DNA of 60,397 nucleotides from positions 1 through 60,397 of IMG/VR virus record IMGVR_UViG_3300038560_000015; one strand, written 5' to 3'. A program made the translations under genes and the position numbers. Shown here piece by piece: positions 5,179-60,397 of this stretch. The notes below the pieces were generated by a model. That model saw nothing but the letters and a program-made list of their open reading frames with translations, made no database searches and had not been told where the DNA came from. Numbering within the stretch: the first letter of the stretch is position 1; the number at the start of each line of letters is the position of its first letter. The DNA comes from a virus.

Positions 5179-5447
5179 AATTGTCTGTTCTGTTGCGTTT
5201 GCGTCAGCAAATAATCCAGTCGGCAGGATGCCGGCGCAGCAATGAGATCAGCGTGGAGTTACAGTTCCATATCAGAGAGATTTGCCCGGTGTGCCATAAG
5301 CCAAGCGTGCGGCTGGCGACCATCGAGCCACACCCGACGCGGGATGACATCGCGCTGCATAACTTCAATTGCCTCGACTGCGGGCCCGTTAGGACGAGGG
5401 AACTCTCGTTGCGACCGAGGGCCGCGGTAATGGAGAGCGCCGCTTGA
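5175..5447 (+). CDS. Zinc-ribbon-like protein
   Basis: 90 residues. CPVCHKPSV and, 28 residues later, CLDCGPV form a Cys4 zinc ribbon; the rest is basic. The ATG overlaps the upstream stop. Small Cys4 proteins of this kind are common in phage early regions. Function unknown. Confidence 0.6.
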   Translation: MKLSVLLRLRQQIIQSAGCRRSNEISVELQFHIREICPVCHKPSVRLATIEPHPTRDDIALHNFNCLDCGPVRTRELSLRPRAAVMESAA

Positions 5448-5647
5448 GCGAGCCTGCGCAAATTTACGCACCCGATCGCGACGTTCTTGATCGTCTCGGC
5501 GAAGCGCTGCGGCGCTATCGGCACGGGCTGATGCGGCCGTTGTGGGCGGACATGACCGAAGCCGATCGGGAAGGCTGGCGCAATCTCGCCGCGACCTTCG
5601 TCATGGACTTGAAGAACGTCGGCATTCGCATCGAGGTCGAGCGGTGA
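5444..5647 (+). CDS. Hypothetical protein starting with TTG
   Basis: 67 residues; TTG 5444 overlaps the upstream stop (TTGA) and is the only start that preserves the coupling. The N-terminus MSEPAQIYAP is encoded by a one-mismatch copy of the dispersed palindrome (5455-5470). The remainder is helical. Function unknown. Confidence 0.6.
   Translation: MSEPAQIYAPDRDVLDRLGEALRRYRHGLMRPLWADMTEADREGWRNLAATFVMDLKNVGIRIEVER
5455..5470. repeat. One-mismatch copy of the TGCGCAAATTTGCGCA palindrome
   Basis: TGCGCAAATTTACGCA, one base away from the perfect sites at 18859-18880, 35806-35833, 50833-50848 and 59216-59231. Confidence 0.5.
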
Positions 5648-18428: not shown

Positions 18429-19097
18429 TCACGGCTCGCGGAAGGCGATGGCGCCGGCCAGCGACCGCGGTCGCTCCCGAACCGCATGGCCGTCGTTGCC
18501 CGACAGCACGATCCACCGGCCGCGATCTTGTCCGACAATCCGGCCGACATGGTGCGGCCAGACGACAAGGGCGCCGACATGCGGCGACGTTGGACGTCCA
18601 TAATGCGCCCAATTGCGCGCGAGGTTATAGGAGCGGTCCGACACGCCGAGCAGATGGCGCATGTAGCAGCCGCACCACGGAATGCCGCGACAATCGCTTG
18701 GCCGGTAGCCGATGACGCGCGAGACGCCTTCGACGACATGCGAGGTCATGCCGACCGCGACGTTCTCAGCGGTATCGATCGCGCCCTGCGCGGCGCCAAA
18801 GGCCATTGAAAACGGCCCCGGCTCGAACGGTGTGAAGGCGGCATCGAGCGCGATGCGAGGCTGCGCAAATTTGCGCAGCCGATACGCGGCATAGCGATGA
18901 CCGCTCCGGCGGTGGGCAACGTAATGCCTCTCATGAACCGGCTGCTCATTCCGCCGCACCGATCGCAGCATGTGGATCAGGCCATGGCCGATCCCTTGCA
19001 CCATCGGATTGCCCGGATGGCGGACATGAGCTTGCGCCGGACCGGCGAAGATCGCCGCGAAAACGCAAAAGATCAGCGTCGAGACGAACGCTCGCAT
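18429..19097 (-). CDS. Secreted CHAP/TIGR02594-like cysteine peptidase
   Basis: 222 residues with a Sec signal (FVSTLIFCVFAAIFAGPAQA). The C-terminal domain starts SDCRGIPWCGCYMRH (candidate nucleophile Cys in WCGC), followed by PTSPHVGALVVWPHHVGRIV, with the general-base His in the HHVGRIVGQD strand, and GNDGHAV: the layout of CHAP-like amidases. It would cut peptidoglycan peptides in the periplasm. A 22-bp perfect palindrome (18859-18880) lies within the coding sequence between the signal and the catalytic domain. Confidence 0.7.
   Translation of the reverse strand: MRAFVSTLIFCVFAAIFAGPAQAHVRHPGNPMVQGIGHGLIHMLRSVRRNEQPVHERHYVAHRRSGHRYAAYRLRKFAQPRIALDAAFTPFEPGPFSMAFGAAQGAIDTAENVAVGMTSHVVEGVSRVIGYRPSDCRGIPWCGCYMRHLLGVSDRSYNLARNWAHYGRPTSPHVGALVVWPHHVGRIVGQDRGRWIVLSGNDGHAVRERPRSLAGAIAFREP
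18859..18880. repeat. Palindrome GGCTGCGCAAATTTGCGCAG-CC (22 bp)
   Basis: Perfect 22-bp palindrome around the shared 16-bp core TGCGCAAATTTGCGCA, inside a coding region. Confidence 0.85.
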
Positions 19098-35386: not shown

Positions 35387-35773
35387 TTAGGCAGTCTTGC
35401 CGTCTTTGCCGTCGCCCTTGGCCAGCTCGGCGCGCACCGCGTCTTCGGCCGCTTTGATCTTGGCCGACACGCCGGCGACGTGTTCCTTCACGGAATCGAC
35501 CAGGACGTCGGCGATGCGCGCATCGGCATAGTCAGCCGGCACGGCGACGCCCAGATGCTTGAGCGCGCCAAGCACGCCGTCGCGCAGCGCGGCGCTGTTG
35601 ACGCCGGTCGGTGCCGCCACCTTCGGCGGCGCATCGACGTCGATATAGCCGAAGGCTTCGACCAGGTGCCTGCCGTCGGCCGTATCGACGTCATAGACGC
35701 CCTTGCTGTTCGGCTTGATCTCAATGCCGCGAATGACGGGATTGCCGCGGCCTTCCGGAGCTTTCAATCGCAT
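35387..35773 (-). CDS. Hypothetical head-region protein, 128 aa
   Basis: Begins with a small beta part (GIEIKPNSKGVYDVDTADGR, then FGYIDVD) and ends with an acidic/basic helix. Position directly after the major capsid gene suits a minor head or connector-associated factor. No family recognised. Confidence 0.55.
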   Translation of the reverse strand: MRLKAPEGRGNPVIRGIEIKPNSKGVYDVDTADGRHLVEAFGYIDVDAPPKVAAPTGVNSAALRDGVLGALKHLGVAVPADYADARIADVLVDSVKEHVAGVSAKIKAAEDAVRAELAKGDGKDGKTA

Positions 35774-35805
35774 AGGTCACCCATTGTTTGGAACGGATTT
35801 GACGA

Positions 35806-35833
35806 CGAGGCTGCGCAAATTTGCGCAGCCTCG
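35806..35833. repeat. 28-bp perfect palindrome after the major capsid gene
   Basis: CGAGGCTGCGC-AAATTT-GCGCAGCCTCG, the longest copy of the dispersed palindrome and the only one outside genes. It could fold as an RNA hairpin between the capsid gene and the next gene, but no T run follows, so a terminator is unlikely. The remaining bases of the 85-bp gap show nothing else. Confidence 0.85.
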
Positions 35834-35858
35834 CTGAAGACATTCCAGCAGCAGTCTG

Positions 35859-37430
35859 TTAGCCGTTGCCGATGTTGTTGATCACCGCCATGGACGGCGG
35901 GAAATAATGCTGCAGAACTTCGTCGGCATAGACGCCGGATTCCCATTTGCGGGACTTTAACGGCCACTGGATCTGGTAGTAGTCCTGCCGCGTCCGGATC
36001 TGCATGACGTTGCCGACGCCCGACATCGGATAGGGCAGCCGCTTCGACGTCATCAGGATGGTGCCCGCGGGCATGTTCGGGTGGATGCGGATGCTGAGCA
36101 CCTGCCCTCCCGCCAGCGAGAACTTGTTCTTGTAGGTCGACACCATGATGCCGCCGCCGATGTCGTCCTTGTTGGTGGCAAAGACGAAGCGCTGTGCGGC
36201 CGTGGTGCCTCCGGCAAGGATCTTCTTGCCGATATTCTCGGCTTCCTGCGAGTTGCACCAGATGGTGTCGGGAGAGAGCCGGTAGTTGTCCCAGCGGTTC
36301 TTGAGCGCCGCATCGATCTCGACCACGCCGCCGGCATTGTCCGCGGTGAGCGGCGTACCGGTGCCGGCCGTACCGGTCGCCTGCGAGGCGACATAGGCAT
36401 TCGACCCGGATTTCATCGCTTGTGTCAGCAACCCGTCGAACGCCAGCGCATTCGTCGAGTTGTCGTTGGCGCCGAGCGATGCGGCCGTCTGCGCACCGGT
36501 CGCGTTCGCCGAGGCCACCAGCGAGTTGATGGTGGTGATGGCGCCGAGCACTTCGGAGCCGGCAACCCCCCAGAACCAGGCGTAGCCCATGGCGCCGGAG
36601 ACTGCCGTGACGGTCGCGGCCAGCGTGCCGTTGCCGCCCATGGCGATGGTGGCGTTGGCGCTCTGCTTGCCGGCGCCACCGCCGAACGTATCGGACGAGC
36701 CGTCGGCATTGACGCGGGTGATCTGGCCCTGAATACCGCCGGAGACGGTGCCGTTGAGCAGGCCGTCGAGCGACAGTGGAACGCAGATCACCGACACCGT
36801 GCCCGTCAGTGTACCGCCGGACGAGCTCGACAGCGACGGCTGCGAGGGTTGCCCCAACGCCACCGAGGTGTCGCCGCCGAGGATCATCGCCTCTTCGCCG
36901 AGCATGCAGGCTTCCAGCCCGACCTTGGCCGCGATGGCGCGGATGTCGTCGAAGCCCATGCCGGCATATTGCGCTTCGAAGTCGACATTGGTCTCGATGC
37001 CGATCCCCTTATACGCTGCCGAGTAGTCGGCATAGGTGATGGCCTGCACGCCGCCGCGATTGCCGACCGAGACGCCGACACGCTGACCGGAGGTGTTGAT
37101 CCCGGTCGCGGCGCGCCAGTTCGCCTGGATGCCGCCCTTGCCGGACATGCGCGGGATTTCGTTGCGGAGCGGCGTGAGCACCGGATAGAGAAACTTCGCC
37201 CCGGTCTCGAGATCGTAGTAATTGAGGCCGTCCGTGGCAGAGCCCGGTTGCGTGAACGTCGACTTGATGAACGACAGCGGGTCGCCGGGCAGCGGCGAAT
37301 TGAAGGCCTTCTCGACCGAGGCGATGAACGCATCGATCGCGACGTCCTCCTTCAGCGAAGGCACCCAGGTGCCCGCCGATTTCATCAGCAGGTCTTTCAC
37401 GCTGGGCGTGAGTTTGATCATTTGCGACAT
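35859..37430 (-). CDS. Major capsid protein
   Basis: 523 residues, an HK97-like capsid protein by position and pattern: a helical N-arm, NEIPRMSGKGG, ADYSAAYKGIGIETNVDFEA (E-loop region), and a C-terminal P/A domain with YRLSPDTIWCNSQEAENIGK, NVMQIRTRQDYYQIQWPLKS and YADEVLQHYFPPSMAVI. Residues about 190-330 are a Gly/Ser/Thr/Ala-rich insertion that is unusually large and may be an added surface domain. The gene follows an XkdF-like protease/scaffold gene. Confidence 0.85.
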   Translation of the reverse strand: MSQMIKLTPSVKDLLMKSAGTWVPSLKEDVAIDAFIASVEKAFNSPLPGDPLSFIKSTFTQPGSATDGLNYYDLETGAKFLYPVLTPLRNEIPRMSGKGGIQANWRAATGINTSGQRVGVSVGNRGGVQAITYADYSAAYKGIGIETNVDFEAQYAGMGFDDIRAIAAKVGLEACMLGEEAMILGGDTSVALGQPSQPSLSSSSGGTLTGTVSVICVPLSLDGLLNGTVSGGIQGQITRVNADGSSDTFGGGAGKQSANATIAMGGNGTLAATVTAVSGAMGYAWFWGVAGSEVLGAITTINSLVASANATGAQTAASLGANDNSTNALAFDGLLTQAMKSGSNAYVASQATGTAGTGTPLTADNAGGVVEIDAALKNRWDNYRLSPDTIWCNSQEAENIGKKILAGGTTAAQRFVFATNKDDIGGGIMVSTYKNKFSLAGGQVLSIRIHPNMPAGTILMTSKRLPYPMSGVGNVMQIRTRQDYYQIQWPLKSRKWESGVYADEVLQHYFPPSMAVINNIGNG

Positions 37431-48812: not shown

Positions 48813-49012
48813 AGCATCGCCTCCCCGGCCAAAACAACCGCAACCGGCACATGCTCGATGAGCTCAATGAATGCGCGCGGCACGCATCGTTGCCGTTCCG
48901 GCAGGCTTTGGCAGGCCTCATCGGCGAGCGCGAAGGCGCCGCAGAATTGGCAGCGCGACACGATGATGCCAAAGTCGAGATCGCGGAGCAGCGGGAGTGC
49001 GGTTTGTCTCAT
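48809..49012 (-). CDS. Small protein with CxxC, 67 aa
   Basis: MRQTALPLLRDLDFGIIVSR, then CQFCGAFALADEAC, a zinc-knuckle-like beginning, and a hydrophobic end. ATGA-coupled on both sides. Function unknown. Confidence 0.5.
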   Translation of the reverse strand: MRQTALPLLRDLDFGIIVSRCQFCGAFALADEACQSLPERQRCVPRAFIELIEHVPVAVVLAGEAML

Positions 49013-50859
49013 GCGCGGCTCCGCAGCATCGCCAGCACGCTCGCCATGTGTTCGCTCGCCGCTTGCTTGGCGTCGCGCCGGTCATCGTCGGTTTCGCTCT
49101 TGTCCTGCATCAAGCCTGTGAATTGGCTGGCCTTGAGATTGAGCGTCGACATGACGAACGGATCGGTGCCGAGATCGGTGACGAGGTAGTAAGCTAAAAC
49201 GCTGTCGCGCTGGCCCATGCGGTGGGCGCGATCTTCCGCCTGCCGATGAATGGCCGGCGACCAATCAAGCTCGGCAAAAACGACGACGCGGGCTCGCGCC
49301 TGCAGGCCGTCAAGGCCGGTCGCGACCCGCAGCGAGATCAAACAAAGGTTCGTCTCGTTTTCGACAAAGCGCCGCTGGGAGTCGTCCTTGACGTTTTTGT
49401 CTTCGCGACCGGTGATGCACGATGGCTTGAATTCGTCGAGCGCTTCGAGGATGCCGTCGACAATGGCGTGATGGTGCACGAAGCACAGCGTCGGTTCGCC
49501 GGCTTCCATGAGACCGCGCAGAAACCCAATAACGGCGGGCAGTTTTGCCATCGCCGTCGCACGCCGCGTTTCGCGGATCGCTTCGGCTTCCATCCGCGCG
49601 CGGTCGAACGGATCGTCGATTTCGGCGGCTTCGCGCGCGAGCTTTGCGGCATTGGAAACCAGATCGGCGAAAATACCGGCATCGCCGGCAATCGGTTCGA
49701 TCACGCGACGTTTCGCCGGCAGTTCCAGTTGCACGTCGGCCTTGCGCCTTCGCAGCATCAGGCGCCGATCGGCAAGATACTCGCCCAGCACTTCCGGATT
49801 ATCGACGACAAGCTTGCGGTCGACATAGACGCACCACGCGCGCTCGAAATCGGCGCGCGTCGACAGCGCGCCGCGGCAGAGCGCGTTCATCACGGTGTGC
49901 ATTTCCGGGCCGTGGTTATAGATCGGCGTGCCGCTCAATCCGGCGACGTTTTCCGCGGCGCGCGACAGATCAGTGCACGCTTCATGCTTGCGCGTGCCGG
50001 GGTGCCGAAGTTCCTGACATTCGTCGAAGATGACAGTCTTGACGCCGCGCTCGATCAGAAACGAGGACCATGCGTGCAGCACCAAATAATGCACGATGTA
50101 GATATCCGCTGTTGGCGTGGCATCGAGACGCTTTGCGCCGTTGAGCGATATCCAGCGCAGCGCGTCGGGATTGGCCGGCAGCGCGTCGCCGGCATCGCGC
50201 ACGCGCATGAATTCCGGCAGCTTCTTTTCCCAATGGCGCTGGACATGCGACTGCACCACGATCGCCGCCGGATAGGCGTTGATCCGATCGAGGAAGCCGA
50301 AGGCCTGGACGGTCTTGCCCAGGCCCATATCGTCGGCGAGCAACCCCTTCCGCACCGCGCAGAGCCATGCGACGCCTTCGGTTTGGAACGGCAGGAGATT
50401 GCCGAGAAAGTGCCGTCCCGCAGCGGTTTCTGCCGGTACTGACGCGGCGATATGGCGCTCGGCGACGAGCTGGCGATAGAAGCGATCGAACATTGCTTGC
50501 GCCGCGTCAGTCATCTTGAGCGGGAAGCGATGCAGCAATAGCAATAGCTCGTCGAAATTGCCGAGCGTCGCGGCGAACGAGTGCCGGTTGATCGAGGCGT
50601 CGCTGTCGTAACCAAACAGCTTGCGCGCCATCAGCACGGCATGCGCCGATCCCGATATCTTCCATTGCGGCCAGCGCGGCGATTTCGGATCGTCCGGCTC
50701 GGAATAATCGAGCGTGCCGACCGTGCTTTCGAGCGGCGGGCGCGTCAGAACCGTCGGCAACTTGACCGCCGGCTCGTCGTCCTTCCAGGCAAGCTTGTCC
50801 GCAAGCTTAAGCATCCAGTCAGGATCGTCGGCTGCGCAAATTTGCGCACGCTCGTTCAT
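49009..50859 (-). CDS. SNF2-type helicase/translocase (helicase 2)
   Basis: 616 residues. ATPase motifs: DDMGLGKT (176-183, Walker A), IFDECQE (Walker B, DECQ), SGTPIYN motif III, and QAEDRAHRMGQ, the SNF2 motif VI. It starts MNERAQICAADDPDWMLKLA; the peptide DDPDWMLKLA-KLAWKD is shared with helicase 1. SNF2 enzymes translocate on duplex DNA and move or strip proteins; phage ones are poorly known. ATGA-coupled to the small gene downstream, 1 nt from the GapR gene upstream. Confidence 0.85.
   Translation of the reverse strand: MNERAQICAADDPDWMLKLADKLAWKDDEPAVKLPTVLTRPPLESTVGTLDYSEPDDPKSPRWPQWKISGSAHAVLMARKLFGYDSDASINRHSFAATLGNFDELLLLLHRFPLKMTDAAQAMFDRFYRQLVAERHIAASVPAETAAGRHFLGNLLPFQTEGVAWLCAVRKGLLADDMGLGKTVQAFGFLDRINAYPAAIVVQSHVQRHWEKKLPEFMRVRDAGDALPANPDALRWISLNGAKRLDATPTADIYIVHYLVLHAWSSFLIERGVKTVIFDECQELRHPGTRKHEACTDLSRAAENVAGLSGTPIYNHGPEMHTVMNALCRGALSTRADFERAWCVYVDRKLVVDNPEVLGEYLADRRLMLRRRKADVQLELPAKRRVIEPIAGDAGIFADLVSNAAKLAREAAEIDDPFDRARMEAEAIRETRRATAMAKLPAVIGFLRGLMEAGEPTLCFVHHHAIVDGILEALDEFKPSCITGREDKNVKDDSQRRFVENETNLCLISLRVATGLDGLQARARVVVFAELDWSPAIHRQAEDRAHRMGQRDSVLAYYLVTDLGTDPFVMSTLNLKASQFTGLMQDKSETDDDRRDAKQAASEHMASVLAMLRSRA
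50833..50848. repeat. Palindrome TGCGCAAATTTGCGCA near the helicase 2 start
   Basis: Perfect 16-bp palindrome encoding part of AQICA in the helicase 2 N-terminus, 11 bp from its ATG. Confidence 0.85.
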
Positions 50860-51152: not shown

Positions 51153-52181
51153 CTAATTCGAGGGGGGGGGTGCGTTGGCTTCGTCGAACTTGGCGAGGTC
51201 GAAGAGTGCCGGCTCCATCGGCGTTTCTTCCGGCACATAGCGGGCTTTAAGATTGAGAACTGCCTGGCGGAAGTACGATGGCTTTAATTCAGCGCCGACC
51301 GCGCGGCGTCCCATCTGCACGGCGGTGACCAATTCGGAGCCGATGCCGGCGAATGGCGAAAACACCACGTCATGCTCGTTGCTCCAAAGGTCGACGCAGC
51401 GGCGGATGACGGTCAGTTGCAGGGGTGAGATATGGCGCTCGTCTTTTTCATCGCGAACACCATCGCGCGACAGGACGTCACTCGGCGCAATGTCGCTCCA
51501 CACCGGCTCGGCGTAGCGCTGCCAGACGGCGATGCTGTAGCGCTCGTCCCCCGGCCACAGCGTCTGCCGTCCGTGCATTCGCGATTCCTGCACGATCGGC
51601 CCGTGCGGCGTCGTTTCCGTGCCGAAGTAGCAGTCCATGATGCCGCTGATTGGCTCAGGATTTTCGCCGGGCTTGCGCATTGTGACGATGTAATCGGCCA
51701 CAGCCATGCGGGAGAGTGCTGAATCCTTGGCAAGCTGTTTATGCAGAAGCCCAATGTGTTTGGTGCGCTGCATCGCCTGCACCGGGTCTTTTCGGATGCA
51801 AACTTCCGAGTGGTAGATAAAACCGGCGCCAACATGTGCCCGGATGATCTCGCCGCGGAAATCGCGCAAGCCGATATAGCCATCGCGCGTCTTGCTTGTA
51901 GGCAGTTGCATGCAGTGGATCGATATGAGCCGGCCGGGCTTTGTGATCCGAAAGCATTCCTCGATCAGAAACTCATAATGCGCCCAAAACTCAGCGAACG
52001 ATGTGCAATTCGAGATGTCGCGAAGATCGTCAGAGAAGGTAAACAAGCCCGGGAATGGCGGGCTATAGATCGTATAGTGCACGGACGCATCGGGAAGTCC
52101 GCGCGCAACCTCTACGCAATCGCCGTTCCAGATCGCCCAGTCGTCGCCGATAACCTGATCGGCCACTGTCACGTCAGCCAT
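51153..52181 (-). CDS. DNA amino-methyltransferase, beta-class, SPPF motif
   Basis: 342 residues. Motif IV is YSPPF (40-43), as in many N4-cytosine enzymes, ahead of motif I VVFSPFAGIGSELVTA (about 272-287). The region between carries the target recognition part. It overlaps helicase 1 by 13 nt, a pairing common in phages. The 3' end contains a run of nine C (coding strand) 7 codons before the stop. Probable role: modification of phage DNA. Confidence 0.85.
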   Translation of the reverse strand: MADVTVADQVIGDDWAIWNGDCVEVARGLPDASVHYTIYSPPFPGLFTFSDDLRDISNCTSFAEFWAHYEFLIEECFRITKPGRLISIHCMQLPTSKTRDGYIGLRDFRGEIIRAHVGAGFIYHSEVCIRKDPVQAMQRTKHIGLLHKQLAKDSALSRMAVADYIVTMRKPGENPEPISGIMDCYFGTETTPHGPIVQESRMHGRQTLWPGDERYSIAVWQRYAEPVWSDIAPSDVLSRDGVRDEKDERHISPLQLTVIRRCVDLWSNEHDVVFSPFAGIGSELVTAVQMGRRAVGAELKPSYFRQAVLNLKARYVPEETPMEPALFDLAKFDEANAPPPSN

Positions 52182-54619
52182 TGCGGCACCTGCATAGGCT
52201 TGTCGTGGATTGAGATCGTGCGCTGCGGTCGCAAATTGACGGCCGTCAAATCGCGCATGTGCTCGGCCATCGATGCCGCCATGTAGTCGGCAGCCTCTTC
52301 CTTGGCTTCGAGATTAGCGACGACCGCGCCTTCCACGTCGGCGGCGACGAGATGAACATTGACCGCCCTGGTTTGACCGAAGCGCCAGCAGCGGCGGATC
52401 GCTTGATAAAGCTGCTCAAAGCTGTCGTTAAGCCCGACGAACACCATGTCGGCACAGCGCTGAAAGTTCATGCCCCAGCCGGCAATGCTCGGCTTGCTGA
52501 TCAGTATTTGATGTTCACCTCTCGCAAAGCCTAGAAGGCGCGCGGCCTTCACATCCGGATCGTCGCTGCCGCGAACCTCGATCGCGCCTGGGATCGCCTG
52601 CGTGAGCGCGGAGGATTCATCGTTGAGATTGCACCAGACGAGCCATTGTCGGTCACGCGCGCTGTTGACTATCGCCGCAGCGGCGGCCACGCGCTCAGTC
52701 AAGGTATTGCGTCGGGCGGCAAGTCGCTCTTGAAGGGTCCGTGCCAGTTGAGGTTCAAGCAACCCCTCGCTGCCCTTGGTCTTGATCGTGACCGGGAATT
52801 TGTTAAGCGCGGGCAGATCATAACCCGCCTCTTCGTAACCGAGATCGCGCGGATGGCGGATCAGGACCGACCATGACGCCAGCCAGCGCCAAAAATCATC
52901 CTCGGCATGCCCCTTAAGGCGCCAGTCGCTGCCCTGCCGAAGGCCATGGTTCTCGATATTTGTGGCGCGGCTCGATCCGTCATGGACGAACCAAGTAGCG
53001 AGCATTTCCTTGTGCTGCAAAATGCCGAGAAATTCGGCATGGTTGCCGAGTTCGACGTAATCGTTAGGTGCCGGCGTTGCCGTGCAGCACAGCCGATATT
53101 GTGTCTCTGCGAATGTCTCGATCAGAGATTGGCGCGTCTTGCCGTCAAACGCTTTGAGGATGCTCGATTCATCAAGCACGATGCCTGCAAATTTAGAGGC
53201 ATCGAATTTTTCCAGCCGCTCGTAGTTCGTCACAACGATGCTGCTGGCAGCCTCGGCTTGGCTTCGCGCGTAGGCGACAGACGCTATTGAAAATCTCTCC
53301 GCCTCCGCGACCGTCTGTTGGGCAACGGCAAGCGGCGTCAGGATCAGAACAGGTCCAGCAAACCGGCTCACAATCTGATCGGCCCACGATAGCTGCTGTA
53401 TCGTCTTTCCGAGACCGGTGCCGGCGAATATTGCCGCCCTGCCGCGCTTAAGCGCCCAGCGCACGATATCGCGCTGGAACGGCTTTAGCGCGGGATTGAG
53501 AGCGTCGCCCGTTATATCGAAGCCGTTCGCAATCGGCAGGCGAATCTTGCTTTCGAGAAAGTGCCGGTACTCGCCATTGCGTTTGTGGCCTATAGCGGGC
53601 GCGTCATCCTCATCCTTCCAAGCCAATTTCTCGGCCAGCTTGAGCATCCAATCCGGATCATCGGGAAGCGAGCCGGCAAGCGCTGGATTCGCGACAGCGC
53701 CTGCCGTCTCTGGCGCTACGGATTGGGCTGGCGGGCTCGCCTCCGTAGCGATCGGTTCGTCCCCGCGAGCTTCTGCCCGCTCCTCACGCGGCGCAGCTTC
53801 CGCTTGTGTTTGCAGCGCAGGCTCTTGGTGGACATGGTCGTCTCCTTTATCGAACTTCTGCCAATGCGCCTCGATCGCGGCGTCCATTTCGTGATGCTGC
53901 GATGGCCGATAGGCAAACGATGCGCCGCAGTCGCAGGCGCCGATGCTCATCGGCTTGTCGGGATCGGAATAATCGATGGTGTGGTGAACGACGTGGCCGG
54001 CTGGATAGACCTTGCGGGCTTTGTTTTGGGCGACGAGTTCGGCGACGACCGGATCGGTTATATGCGCCGGCGGCCCGGCGCTTTCTTTTTCAGCGTCGCT
54101 CGCTTCGCTTTGCGCGCTGTGTGCGGGCCGAGGATGTCGCGCTCTTTCAAGATGTTCTTCATCCTGAGAACGTTCCTGCTGGCACGAATCGGCTTGTGTT
54201 TCGGCTTGCGGCTCATCGGCACTCTCCGACTTTATCCTAGCGACGGACGGCTTGAGCGACAACGCCCATTCGATCATCCGGCCCGCGGCGCCGGCGTCCC
54301 AATGGATGCCCTGGTCGGCAGACTGTCGCGCAAAGCGCCGGAAATCCTTGATCTTGCGCGCGATCGAGCAGCGCAGCGCCGCTTCTCTTGTCGGGAATTG
54401 CGGATTGTCGATCGAGAAGCCGTTATGGCGCACAAGCCATTGGCCGTTATCGAGAGGCAGTACGCCGATGATCGCGACCGCCGAGCGATGCTGCGGATTG
54501 TCGGGCTCGAATATCTCGCCCTGATCGTCGCGGAAGAAACGGCCCATGCCGGCTTGCGGCGGCTCGCCGGTGGCCGTCTGCAGAAGCGGAGCGATCAGGT
54601 TGGGGTCGTGGGCGTTCAT
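52169..54619 (-). CDS. DEAD/SNF2-like helicase with long N-terminal extension (helicase 1)
   Basis: 816 residues. Helicase core from about residue 355: AIFAGTGLGKTIQQLS (Walker A, about 398), VLDESSILKAFDG (Walker B as DESS), CCTATPAPND (motif III), and QAIRRCWRFGQT (motif VI). N-terminal 330 residues are composite: a part starting GMGRFFRDDQGEIFEPD, a charged linker, a Cys/His segment (GACDCGASF), then DDPDWMLKLAEKLAWKDE as in helicase 2. The gene joins the methyltransferase at both ends by overlaps, so the proteins probably act together. Confidence 0.85.
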   Translation of the reverse strand: MNAHDPNLIAPLLQTATGEPPQAGMGRFFRDDQGEIFEPDNPQHRSAVAIIGVLPLDNGQWLVRHNGFSIDNPQFPTREAALRCSIARKIKDFRRFARQSADQGIHWDAGAAGRMIEWALSLKPSVARIKSESADEPQAETQADSCQQERSQDEEHLERARHPRPAHSAQSEASDAEKESAGPPAHITDPVVAELVAQNKARKVYPAGHVVHHTIDYSDPDKPMSIGACDCGASFAYRPSQHHEMDAAIEAHWQKFDKGDDHVHQEPALQTQAEAAPREERAEARGDEPIATEASPPAQSVAPETAGAVANPALAGSLPDDPDWMLKLAEKLAWKDEDDAPAIGHKRNGEYRHFLESKIRLPIANGFDITGDALNPALKPFQRDIVRWALKRGRAAIFAGTGLGKTIQQLSWADQIVSRFAGPVLILTPLAVAQQTVAEAERFSIASVAYARSQAEAASSIVVTNYERLEKFDASKFAGIVLDESSILKAFDGKTRQSLIETFAETQYRLCCTATPAPNDYVELGNHAEFLGILQHKEMLATWFVHDGSSRATNIENHGLRQGSDWRLKGHAEDDFWRWLASWSVLIRHPRDLGYEEAGYDLPALNKFPVTIKTKGSEGLLEPQLARTLQERLAARRNTLTERVAAAAAIVNSARDRQWLVWCNLNDESSALTQAIPGAIEVRGSDDPDVKAARLLGFARGEHQILISKPSIAGWGMNFQRCADMVFVGLNDSFEQLYQAIRRCWRFGQTRAVNVHLVAADVEGAVVANLEAKEEAADYMAASMAEHMRDLTAVNLRPQRTISIHDKPMQVPQWLT

Positions 54620-56673
54620 TCCGCAGCCTCGCGCGCGAATTCCGGAACGCCGTTATCGTTGACTTCAAGCGGAGCGAAGTTCGCCTCGACCAGCGCCCGC
54701 GACATGGGCGGGCAGACGCTGTTGCCGCATTTCGAGACCTGATCGGTTTTGCTGATCGGCCGCTCGATCAGCTTGCCGACGTGACCGGCACTGATCTCGA
54801 TATGCTGGCCGCGATTGATGATATAGCTGTCGGGAAATCCTTGCGCGCGGAACAGTTCGCGCGGCGTCAGCATCCGCATGCCGATGTCGGCGATGACGTA
54901 AGTCTCGCCTTTGATCTCGACCGTCACGGCCGCGTAGCGGTCCTTGCAATCGATCGTGTGCAGAGGATCATCAGCCGCCTGGTGCTGCCCGCCGGAGCCG
55001 TGCGCTTTCGTCAGGAACGCGCTGACGGCCGCCTGGTGACCGCCTTGCGCACTGACGGTCGCCGCCGGACTTTCGACAGGACGCGGCATGAGCTGATCGT
55101 CGGCCGTGCCGCGCATGTTCATAAGGCCGGCCGAGACGACGGCCTGATGCGATCCGCTCTGCAGAATCGTTGACGCCGGCTCGCGCGCATCGCGGCCGGG
55201 ATTTTGCACGCCGCCGCGGCTGACGTTGTGCTGGGCGAGGAACGCCGCGACCAGACCGAAGCGGTTATATTGCGACGTCGCCGTATGCAGCGGCTCGGCG
55301 GCGCCGGATGCCGGCTTGTCGCCGAAATTATTCTTGGTGACGTGTGCGGCGATGACGGCGTGCCGAGGATCGCCGGTCACCGTGCGGATCGGCTCTTCGG
55401 CGCTCGCCGAGCGGTCCTTGCCTCCGGCGCCATCGCCAAAGAATGCAGAGAGGTGTGCGGTCACCACATTCAAATGCGCGCCGCCGGCAGTGACGACGTG
55501 TGTCGGCTGGTCCGCGCCGTTGAACGGCTTTTGCGCGTTGCGGTTCGTGTTCAGGTGTGCTGCGACCAGGCCATGCTTGACGCCGCCGGCGACGACAGTG
55601 CCGAGGGGCTTGTCGAGACCGGGGACGCGAGGATCCTGTCCGTCCCGCTCGCCGTAGCCAGTTTGAATGAGCGTCGGCGCGATAATGGCGTTGGCGTCTT
55701 TGCGCGATGCCGTGACGGTGTGCAGCGGCTCCTCCGCTGATCGTACCGCGCCTCCTTGCTGCGCGTAGGTCACGACTGGCGAGACGATAGCTTTTTCGCC
55801 GCGATGCGCGCCGGTTACCGTCATGAACGGCTCGGTTACCGCCTCACCTCGTTCGCCGCCCTGATGCGTCAACGAGACGATGAACGGCTCTTTGGCGTCG
55901 ATCACATAGCGCTTCACGCCCTTGGCGATGCGCGCCATCGTGGCCGGCGCCAGCGGGCGCTTGATGCCGAAGGGTTTGGCTTCCTCTTTCGTCAGGAAGA
56001 TCGAATAGCACGGGAGCGACCAATCGATGACCTCGGCGGCCGTGCGCCAGGGCAGAAGCTTGCCGGATTTCACGGCATCGGCTTTCGGATCGCCGTGCGT
56101 CGGCACCGGCCAGATGATCGGCAGGCCGTCGCGGCGGGCGATCAGGAACAGCCGCTTGCGGATGGTCGGCGCGCCGTAGTCGCAGGCGCGCAGCTCGCGC
56201 CATTCGACCTTGTAGCCGAGCTTATTAAGCTCGCCGATGAAGCGGTTGAATTCCTCGCCCTTGCGCAGCTTGCACGGACGGTTGTCGTCGCCGAGCGGCC
56301 CCCAGGTTTTGAACTCTTCGACGTTTTCCATCATGATGACGCGGGGCGCGACCTGGCGCGCCCACTTCACGATCACCCAGGCGAGGTCGCGGATTTTCTT
56401 CTCGACCGGCTTGCCGCCCTTGGCCTTACTGAAATGTTTGCAATCCGGACTGGCCCACAATAGCCCGACCGGGCGGCCCTGGCAGACGGCGGACGGATCG
56501 ACCTTCCAGATATCGTGCGGGATGTGCATCGTCGCCGGATGATTGATCCGGTGCATCGCCATGGCGGTCGCGTCGTGGTTGATCGCGATGTCGGGAGAAA
56601 TCCCGAGCGCCATTTCGATGCCGGTCGAAGCACCCCCGCCGCCGGCAAAGCTATCGACGATCAATTCCCGCAC
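54616..56673 (-). CDS. dcm-like: C5-cytosine DNA methyltransferase with a nine-repeat recognition region
   Basis: 685 residues. Motif I DSFAGGGGASTGIE (7-20), motif IV ASPDCKHFS with catalytic Cys78, motif VI MMENVEE (115-120), motif VIII PTIRKRLFLIARR (169-181), motif X KCGNSVCPP near the C-terminus. Residues about 268-600 contain nine units of the pattern (E/D)-P-(L/x)-x-T-(V/A)-T-x4-H-x-(V/L)-V-x-A, for example EEPLHTVTASRKDANAI and EEPIRTVTGDPRHAVIAA. Usual members have a single recognition region of much smaller size. It methylates cytosine C5, with perhaps several targets. Confidence 0.85.
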   Translation of the reverse strand: MRELIVDSFAGGGGASTGIEMALGISPDIAINHDATAMAMHRINHPATMHIPHDIWKVDPSAVCQGRPVGLLWASPDCKHFSKAKGGKPVEKKIRDLAWVIVKWARQVAPRVIMMENVEEFKTWGPLGDDNRPCKLRKGEEFNRFIGELNKLGYKVEWRELRACDYGAPTIRKRLFLIARRDGLPIIWPVPTHGDPKADAVKSGKLLPWRTAAEVIDWSLPCYSIFLTKEEAKPFGIKRPLAPATMARIAKGVKRYVIDAKEPFIVSLTHQGGERGEAVTEPFMTVTGAHRGEKAIVSPVVTYAQQGGAVRSAEEPLHTVTASRKDANAIIAPTLIQTGYGERDGQDPRVPGLDKPLGTVVAGGVKHGLVAAHLNTNRNAQKPFNGADQPTHVVTAGGAHLNVVTAHLSAFFGDGAGGKDRSASAEEPIRTVTGDPRHAVIAAHVTKNNFGDKPASGAAEPLHTATSQYNRFGLVAAFLAQHNVSRGGVQNPGRDAREPASTILQSGSHQAVVSAGLMNMRGTADDQLMPRPVESPAATVSAQGGHQAAVSAFLTKAHGSGGQHQAADDPLHTIDCKDRYAAVTVEIKGETYVIADIGMRMLTPRELFRAQGFPDSYIINRGQHIEISAGHVGKLIERPISKTDQVSKCGNSVCPPMSRALVEANFAPLEVNDNGVPEFAREAAE

Positions 56674-57959: not shown

Positions 57960-58319
57960 TCACCATTGCTTGCCGTTGGCGCGCAATCGCGCTTCGGCTT
58001 TGTGGTCCGCCCGCTGTTTGTTGTAAGCCCGTTTCTCAGCGACGGCCGCGTCCAGGTCGTAACCGAAGGCGCCGCAGTAATCGAAAATTCTGATTAGAAC
58101 GTCGGCGAATTCCACTTCCGCCATCCGCCGATGCGGCAGATGGTCGTCCATTAAATTCTTGCGCTCGCCTTCCATGGCCTCCGACAGTTCGGAGTGCATG
58201 AGGCAGATCATCTCGCCCTTGTTGCGATTGAGACGCTCGCCGGTCGCGGGATTGCGCCACCAATGCTCGTTCTCAGTATGACATTCGCGCGCGAGATCGT
58301 TGAGCGGAGTATTGCTCAT
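57960..58319 (-). CDS. MazG-like nucleotide pyrophosphohydrolase
   Basis: 119 residues. GEMICLMHSELSEAMEGERK and RRMAEVEFADVLIRIFDYCG supply the ExxE and ExxD metal-binding pairs, intact here unlike in the protein at 9848-10225. Acts on (d)NTPs; in a phage it may cleanse or bias the pool. ATGA-coupled to the ParB-methyltransferase gene. Confidence 0.75.
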   Translation of the reverse strand: MSNTPLNDLARECHTENEHWWRNPATGERLNRNKGEMICLMHSELSEAMEGERKNLMDDHLPHRRMAEVEFADVLIRIFDYCGAFGYDLDAAVAEKRAYNKQRADHKAEARLRANGKQW

Positions 58320-59596
58320 TCTGCCGCTTCCGCAGGTAAGAGGGATTGCTGTTGCGGGACGTTGGCTTCGTTGCCCCAGCCGAACCACGTTTCCGGAAGC
58401 GCACCGTTGATGCGCGGGAACAGCTCGACCTTCGGCAGATCGGGGTAGTAAGCGGTGATCAGATCGCGGAAATATTTCGGCTTGGCCGAATGCTTGCCGC
58501 GCGCCTCGCGATAGAGCGACGGCCGCAACAGCGACGGCTCCGGCGCCGGCATCTTGCCGCGCGTCGCGATCAGCAAACACTCATGCGCGCTGCGGTTCCA
58601 GAAGCCCATGCCGAGCGCGGCCTTGTCCCAGGCGAACTCGGAGACGTATTCAAAACCCCAGCCCTCGATCAGCCGCATGGTTTTGCGGAGCCACGGCACG
58701 GTCGACCAGATGAAGAGAACCGCGTCAGACGTCGCCAGCGCGCCGATCGGCAGCTTGGCGATCTCTTCCTCGGTCATGGTCGGATAGTGGTTTTCGGTCG
58801 AGCGGTCGCTGTCGCCGGCGGCGAATTTTGTCGGCGGATCCATGTAAAGGACCGGGAATTTACGCTCGGTCGGCAGTTCGCTGTTGCCGACGGAGATCGC
58901 CGCAAGCTTGCCGATGCGTTCGCCGCGGCGCTTTTCGTTTTGCTCCTTGCGGATTTTCTTGGCCGCTTCGAGGATCTCTTTTTCCGAGAGCTTGGCGACT
59001 TCGCGCTGTTGCTCTTGCGGCAGGCTGGCGAGATCGGCTGCCGTCGAGACTGCAACGCGCCCTTCGTCGACGGCTTGCTGCAGCTCTGGCGCGCCCTTTT
59101 CCTGCACCGCTGCCGCGCTTTGCAGGCTGCGCCGACTGACATTGAGCAGCTCGGCCGCCTCGCCTTGCGCCACGATCGGCACCGGCTCGGAGGCCTCGAC
59201 GCCGGGCAGCGTGGGTGCGCAAATTTGCGCAGCCTCGCGGGTGTGCTGGTTGGAGCCGACCTTGAACTTGGCGAGCCGCGCCGCCACCATGGCGCGCTGG
59301 CTTTCGTCCATGTGCCGGCGCTTGAGATTCTTCGAGACGACGTAATTGAGCGCAGCGCGATCGTCGCCGACGAAAAGCTCGGTGCGCACCGGAAGTGTTT
59401 TAAGCGCGCACGCCCGATAGCGGTTGCGGCCATCCAGGATCATTCCGCGATGCAGCTTGACCGTCTCTGCCTGGCCGTTGGCGGCAATGTCGTCGGCGAG
59501 CTCGGCAAGCTCGGACGCCGGCAACGGCGGGAATAAGTTCGCCATCGGATGGTCTTTAAGCGGCGCATGGCCGGGCATGAGGGTCGAGCCGGTCAT
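58316..59596 (-). CDS. ParB-like/MT-A70 adenine methyltransferase fusion
   Basis: 426 residues. N-terminal ParB/sulfiredoxin-like domain (residues about 25-120: RGMILDGRNRYRACALK, SKNLKRRHMDESQRAM), a middle HTH-like region (AQGEAAELLNVSRRSLQSAA) and C-terminal MT-A70 domain (about 250-420): VLYMDPPTKFAAG, ENHYPTMTEEEI, AVLFIWSTVPWL, NRSAHECLLIATRGK. MT-A70 motif IV is normally DPPW; here DPPT. It should methylate adenine N6. The 16-bp palindrome lies inside the gene (AAQICA). ATGA-coupled on both sides. Confidence 0.85.
   Translation of the reverse strand: MTGSTLMPGHAPLKDHPMANLFPPLPASELAELADDIAANGQAETVKLHRGMILDGRNRYRACALKTLPVRTELFVGDDRAALNYVVSKNLKRRHMDESQRAMVAARLAKFKVGSNQHTREAAQICAPTLPGVEASEPVPIVAQGEAAELLNVSRRSLQSAAAVQEKGAPELQQAVDEGRVAVSTAADLASLPQEQQREVAKLSEKEILEAAKKIRKEQNEKRRGERIGKLAAISVGNSELPTERKFPVLYMDPPTKFAAGDSDRSTENHYPTMTEEEIAKLPIGALATSDAVLFIWSTVPWLRKTMRLIEGWGFEYVSEFAWDKAALGMGFWNRSAHECLLIATRGKMPAPEPSLLRPSLYREARGKHSAKPKYFRDLITAYYPDLPKVELFPRINGALPETWFGWGNEANVPQQQSLLPAEAAE
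59216..59231. repeat. Palindrome TGCGCAAATTTGCGCA inside the ParB-MT-A70 gene
   Basis: Perfect 16-bp palindrome, encoding AQICA of AAQICAPTLPG between the ParB-like and HTH-like parts. Confidence 0.85.

Positions 59597-60132: not shown

Positions 60133-60397
<265 letters not shown>

Follow-up and report, generated by a model that had tools for sequence, protein, structure and literature searches.

A 16-bp palindrome repeated along a phage genome is very probably the sequence-specific, parS-like site of the phage's own ParB-like protein, as judged from comparative sequence evidence. Among the sequences compared, changes in the helix-turn-helix (HTH) of this protein are matched, residue for base, by changes in a palindrome that lies some tens of codons upstream within its gene, and the extra copies found in some genomes match the variant carried by their own gene.

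The window, i.e. the whole stretch of 60,397 bases that was analysed, is an IMG/VR virus record harbouring terminase, portal, capsid-like and tail genes. One and the same low-complexity repeat of the GGCGGCGTAGGCGGC type forms both of its ends (1–60 and 60338–60397), which would suit a circular record or one that breaks off within a repeat. The palindrome TGCGCAAATTTGCGCA is found in four exact copies, starting at 18862, 35812, 50833 and 59216, and in one copy with a single mismatch at 5455; nothing further appears in the whole window with up to three mismatches. The copies, to which no strand is assigned, are the following:

5455–5470: one-mismatch copy TGCGCAAATTTACGCA, codons 4–9 of the small ORF 5444–5647
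18859–18880: 22-bp palindrome with the exact 16-mer at 18862–18877, within ORF 18429–19097 (minus strand)
35806–35833: 28-bp palindrome with the exact 16-mer at 35812–35827, intergenic
50833–50848: exact 16-mer, codons 4–9 of the helicase gene 49009–50859 (minus strand)
59216–59231: exact 16-mer within the ParB-like gene, encoding residues 123–127 (AQICA)

The 28-bp and 22-bp extensions are the two longest perfect palindromes of the window. The initial annotation had listed these four perfect copies with their extensions and the imperfect one, and the same positions were recovered. It had also judged their number to be beyond chance, in agreement with the 9e-6 to 1.1e-4 exact copies expected under Markov models of order 0 to 4 and with the failure of all 100 dinucleotide shuffles to reach five matches to TGCGCAAATTTGCGCA. 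Its assignment of four copies to coding sequences and one to an intergenic region holds for the ORFs as located, family support being weak for those at 5455 and 18862 (none from family searches for ORF 5444–5647; a weak PHROG match, 8e-4, for ORF 18429–19097). The helicase genes 49009–50859 and 52169–54619 both belong to PHROG 62, and a C5-cytosine methylase gene (54616–56673) adjoins.

The copy at 59216 lies in the gene of the proposed reader, whose features are:

58316–59596, minus strand: gene of a 426-aa protein with a ParB-like N-domain, an HTH and an MT-A70 domain, the proposed palindrome reader
59186–59254, minus strand: loop holding the palindrome, codons 115–137, predicted to be disordered (pLDDT <50)
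59096–59134, minus strand: predicted recognition helix, codons 155–167, in which R155, R156, Q159 and S160 co-vary with bases
58367–58855, minus strand: MT-A70 domain, residues 248–410, matched by a Pfam profile

The ParB N-terminal (ParB-CTPase) fold was recognized by HMMER with a profile of the family N-domain, which matches Spo0J (1vz0, E 6.9e-6) and Noc (7nfu, 1.1e-5). As methyltransferases alone were among the matches listed for the predicted structure of the whole protein, the N-domain was folded and searched separately; its best matches are then ParB (several structures with bound nucleotide), Noc and KorB, including 7bm8 (Z 11.2, rmsd 2.1 over 86 residues), 8qa9 (Z 10.5, rmsd 5.7 over 186 residues) and 8qa8. 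The AlphaFold model and the HMMER alignment to Spo0J place a central HTH next, with its recognition helix at residues 155–167. Seven residues (D55, G56, R57, R59, N90, R93 and R94) are invariant across 38 homologues, a conservation compatible with NTP (CTP) binding and clamp closure.

The MT-A70 domain of the window protein (PF05063, 56.5 bits for a cut-off of 23.9) has METTL3 and MTA1 as structural matches (Z 18–20, predicted structure). In the protein alignment, the window has the motif DPPT, L293 and L301 have DFEW and L182 has DPPW, the catalytic motif of MT-A70 methyltransferases. Since MT-A70 is patchy (26 of the 38 homologues scanned, a few others carrying other methyltransferases and some none at all), methylation cannot be the role shared by the family. 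The Pfam matches of the 38 homologues include no ParB C-terminal dimerisation domain, the window protein ending in MT-A70 instead. No ParA-like ATPase was detected either: the window, a possibly incomplete record, gives no hit to PF13614, a profile that does find matches in each of the 14 control genomes.

The exact motif was found in 87 IMG/VR stretches, and many of these copies occupy a homologous position in ParB-like genes, where they encode AQICA, after the helix ESQRAMVA and ahead of the HTH; L025 and L028 have identical DNA at this loop in another reading frame (CANLRK). A blastn search with the bare motif gave no matches, the motif probably being too short. ParB-like loci were gathered not only through the motif but also by protein similarity (the best 80 of about 570 relatives per scan), using search patterns outside the loop, to give a discovery set of 112 ORFs, which form 61 clusters at 80% identity. 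Relatives devoid of the window's motif carry other palindromes at the same loop, just before the HTH. These palindromes vary among phages (19 six-base half-sites) and can lie in different reading frames. They reach at least 12 bp in 48 of the 61 clusters and at least 16 bp in 37, many extending to 22–26 bp, for an average of 7.5 bp after synonymous recoding of the same loop peptides. The subset of 46 clusters retrieved through protein similarity only behaves similarly (at least 12 bp in 34 and at least 16 bp in 23). For single AQICA-type peptides, the recoding test is mostly non-significant (p 0.07 for the window, for example), as AQICA itself can encode a palindrome; its strength lies in the whole set. 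The centre is AATT in 50 of the 57 loop palindromes of at least 8 bp. AlphaFold places the residues encoded by the palindrome in a loop of pLDDT <50, a part of the protein that can probably tolerate them.

The loop palindrome is not universal. One of 12 bp is missing in 13 of the 61 discovery clusters and in 13 of 58 held-out clusters. Among 16 records of plasmid relatives (pCAR1 and others) and distant named phages, no loop palindrome of at least 10 bp was detected, with the exception of TGCAAATTTGCA in Sinorhizobium medicae pMl3, and none was found in the loop of three more named phages.

The relationship between palindrome and protein was examined by numbering the HTH from its conserved alanine (A148 of the window = 0), so that residues 7, 8, 11 and 12 correspond to R155, R156, Q159 and S160. 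The rules were drawn from the 50 discovery clusters that have an AATT-centred palindrome. Because the rule for residue 12 was first seen by eye in this set, it was tested on 58 new clusters from two further scans, each less than 80% identical to all earlier ones, of which the 42 with an AATT palindrome of at least 10 bp were counted. An arginine at residue 12 coincides with a G at base 3 of the half-site in 30 of 30 clusters, for 0 of the 62 lacking this arginine (discovery 9/9 versus 0/41; held-out 21/21 versus 0/21; 92 clusters in all). L498 and L526, which stand outside this count as their loop palindromes are centred on CCGG and not on AATT, also combine an arginine at residue 12 with a G at base 3. 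For residues 7, 8 and 11, the association is tighter among the discovery clusters than among the held-out ones: arginine at residue 8 goes with GC at bases 4–5 (discovery 44/44 versus 0/6; held-out 26/28 versus 1/14), glutamine at residue 11 with GC at bases 6–7 (18/18 versus 1/32; 7/8 versus 4/34) and arginine at residue 7 with C at base 7 (19/19 versus 5/31; 9/10 versus 9/32).

On a tree built without the loop and helix columns, residue 12 and base 3 each change seven times, and branches with good support require three of these changes. Such branches offer only two to four independent pairs per trait, too few for a sign test; for residue 12 and base 3, all three go in the same direction. According to the HMMER alignment to Spo0J, converted by us to Caulobacter numbering, residue 7 corresponds to R173 and residue 12 to N178 of Caulobacter ParB. 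R173 contacts guanine 1 of parS and N178 also contacts parS, as reported in PMC7383237. By our own count, the partner of guanine 1 is base 7 as numbered from the centre, which is also the base tracked by residue 7. These data, drawn from 92 clusters, strongly support a co-variation between the palindrome and the recognition helix of the protein whose gene holds it. Binding by the ParB-like fusion, one of several possibilities raised by the initial annotation, which also named a candidate packaging or modification mark, thereby gains strong sequence-based support.

Because a perfect palindrome can also fold into a stem whose loop is centred on AAUU, the element might instead serve in RNA, as a hairpin involved in termination, processing or stability. 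This is very unlikely. The palindrome at 35806–35833 does lie directly behind a capsid-like gene, between this major-capsid-like gene (35859–37430) and ORF 35387–35773, at a place where relatives have other GC-rich inverted repeats, and the length of 22–26 bp reached by many loop palindromes would also suit a stem. However, a hairpin explains neither the bases that track helix residues nor the AATT centre kept in 50 of 57 loop palindromes, and most copies of the window are inside genes. Among 47 records of capsid relatives, the motif (with at most one mismatch) was found in L212 alone, and neither of the two Brevundimonas phages included has it, indicating that the site does not follow the capsid module. 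The conservation of position considered by the initial annotation is thus seen in L212, where the motif is also behind the capsid gene, and not elsewhere in these 47 records. In several relatives (L212–L291), an unrelated inverted repeat is found behind the capsid-like gene; the versions of the window (35774–35858) and of L212 are built from the palindrome.

Copies outside the ParB-like gene point to its protein as well. Thirty full or near-full records contain 17 exact extra copies of their gene's own 16-mer, distributed over nine records, for 0.00 with permuted palindromes. Six of these records had been found through the motif itself; the other 24 contain five exact extra copies in three records (L299, L305 and L365), which have three different palindromes, one of the two extra copies of L305 being located in the same ORF. 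Most phages have the in-gene copy only; GCAAATTTGC is present in 36 of 50 records and single in 29. The extra sites are mostly at non-conserved positions. In the window's clade, three to five sites are spread across the genome, 6–21 kb apart.

The code also makes predictions for proteins whose gene is devoid of a loop palindrome. L306, 65% identical over the match, has no loop palindrome and the same helix residues (R, R, Q, R) as L299; the code and L299 thus predict TGCGCCAATTGGCGCA as its site. Its 54.8-kb record, from which the window's motif is absent, contains three exact copies of TGCGCCAATTGGCGCA and one with a single mismatch, 10–21 kb apart, the three exact copies being flanked by GCC and GGC, for 0.0 copies with random palindromes of the TGCGCCAATTGGCGCA type. 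The capsid relative L213 likewise has TGCGCCAATTGGCGCA. In three other cases, L538, L485 and L558, the prediction did not hold, their records being entirely devoid of SGCMAATTKGCS; the same pattern was searched for in L374, L357, L312 and L377, which have no perfect loop palindrome, and was absent. Copies occupy several genes and reading frames, in loops or close to the ends of proteins, as would also be expected from a mobile or selfish repeat inserting into genes at tolerant places, yet such a repeat predicts neither the co-variation with the recognition helix nor the different palindrome of L306, which makes this origin extremely unlikely.

In 117 Bradyrhizobium genomes of 4.3–10.4 Mb, only 14 exact copies of the window's motif were found, in nine genomes, and seven of them fall in two prophage-like regions: five within 54 kb in Bradyrhizobium sp. 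SRS-191 (G003) and two within 3 kb in G006. The G003 region encodes a ParB/MT-A70 protein related to that of the window, a terminase, helicases and a methylase, and the G006 region a helicase and its neighbours; as they code for window-related proteins, both regions are taken as related prophages. The frequency of the motif in host genomes, a check proposed by the initial annotation, hence gives a low count, half of it in prophage-like regions, and a host repeat was rejected on account of this rarity. The same annotation had also considered GapR or another host chromosome-organising factor as the binding protein. A gene that we presume to be GapR-like ends just upstream of the copy at 50833; set against this, the motif is rare in Bradyrhizobium outside the two prophage-like regions, the palindrome of relatives tracks their own ParB helix, and the phage L306 uses another palindrome predicted by that helix. 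A host factor is exceedingly improbable on these grounds and this earlier suggestion is not supported. In some temperate phages, repressor sites are dispersed short palindromes, and Bradyrhizobium harbours an integrated, related prophage-like region; the palindrome could accordingly be imagined as an operator bound by some phage regulator unconnected with the ParB-like protein. This is very unlikely, as it would not account for a palindrome located in the ParB-like gene of many diverse phages, with a sequence that tracks the ParB-like helix.

The exact 16-mer was also observed in other contexts. Nine exact copies are found on nine contigs of one genome, that of Pararhodobacter sp. SW119 (G007). 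In L011, L027, L069, L079 and L083, it occupies one place in another small protein (GATLAQICxxTGWQxHTVRG), which presumably resembles DUF3489, and record G029 has both a copy in a gene of this type and a ParB-like copy. This protein may represent a second self-tagged family. A further protein family (SFGRV-RKFAH/RKFAQ-P), seen in L005, L057, L060, L062 and L078, also has the motif at one place, read in another frame.

The proposed recognition of the palindrome by the phage's ParB-like protein can be compared with that of known systems. In Bacillus subtilis, a parS site may lie within the parB gene itself. The phage protein and its site share with chromosomal ParB (Spo0J) and parS the fold of the ParB N-domain, the HTH, a 16-bp palindromic site and a matching correspondence between residues and bases. 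They differ from them in that no ParA was found in the window, the MT-A70 C-terminus replaces the ParB dimerisation domain, and the phage sites are centred on AATT, differ among relatives and are either spread over the genome or single. KorB of plasmid RK2 is another ParB-fold regulator; as a clamp dependent on CTP, it is reported to slide away from distal OB sites and so to repress genes at a distance (PMC11790492). Its structures 8qa9 and 8qa8 match the N-domain model, whereas its site and partners differ. Noc shares its fold and HTH with the phage protein. The specificities of Noc and ParB are reported to be switched by a few residues (PMC7383237); however, Noc corresponds to one switch from parS to NBS, whereas the phages show many specificities, each written in the gene. 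A survey of phage fusions of ParB-CTPase folds and methyltransferases, which belong to the same broad protein class, suggests anti-defence or phage–host roles (PMC12704722); the word stem 'palindrom' is absent from its main text, and no description of a target site of these fusions was found there. No description of these palindromes was found in open-licence PMC full texts, judged by title and start of abstract. Recognition of a site by ParB is thus already known; what seems new is the presence, in a large phage family, of a variable site in the loop ahead of the protein's own HTH, together with a legible code linking residues and bases.

From these comparisons, the following model can be drawn. 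Two subunits would bind the two half-sites, as in the ParB-parS, Noc-NBS and KorB-OB complexes. By analogy with ParB, Noc and KorB, the protein would probably be loaded at this site onto the very phage DNA that carries its gene, on which it would perhaps slide as a nucleotide-gated clamp. From there, it would act in cis, by silencing, by DNA organisation or, for members carrying MT-A70, by methylation. With sites spaced by 6–21 kb, as seen in the window, in L306 and in the SRS-191 region, such clamps could cover the genome, chromosomal ParB peaks being reported to span up to 50 kb (PMC7022226). A more speculative extension, which we hold only tentatively, is that of a self-addressing enzyme: as the gene carries the loading site of its own clamp, the protein would load only on the DNA molecule encoding it, slide and mark or shield this DNA as self (for example through adenine methylation by MT-A70, Dam or N6_N4 fusions), host DNA devoid of the site being left alone.

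Phage fusions of ParB-like proteins and methyltransferases are common, and the papers found give no description of their DNA targets. As each gene tends to carry a matching site, the rule that links protein and site can be read directly from sequences. If the gene does carry its own target, DNA specificity would be readable from the sequence alone and about 90 natural protein–site pairs would be available for the ParB HTH. The role and the sites of action of orphan phage ParB proteins would thus become directly testable.
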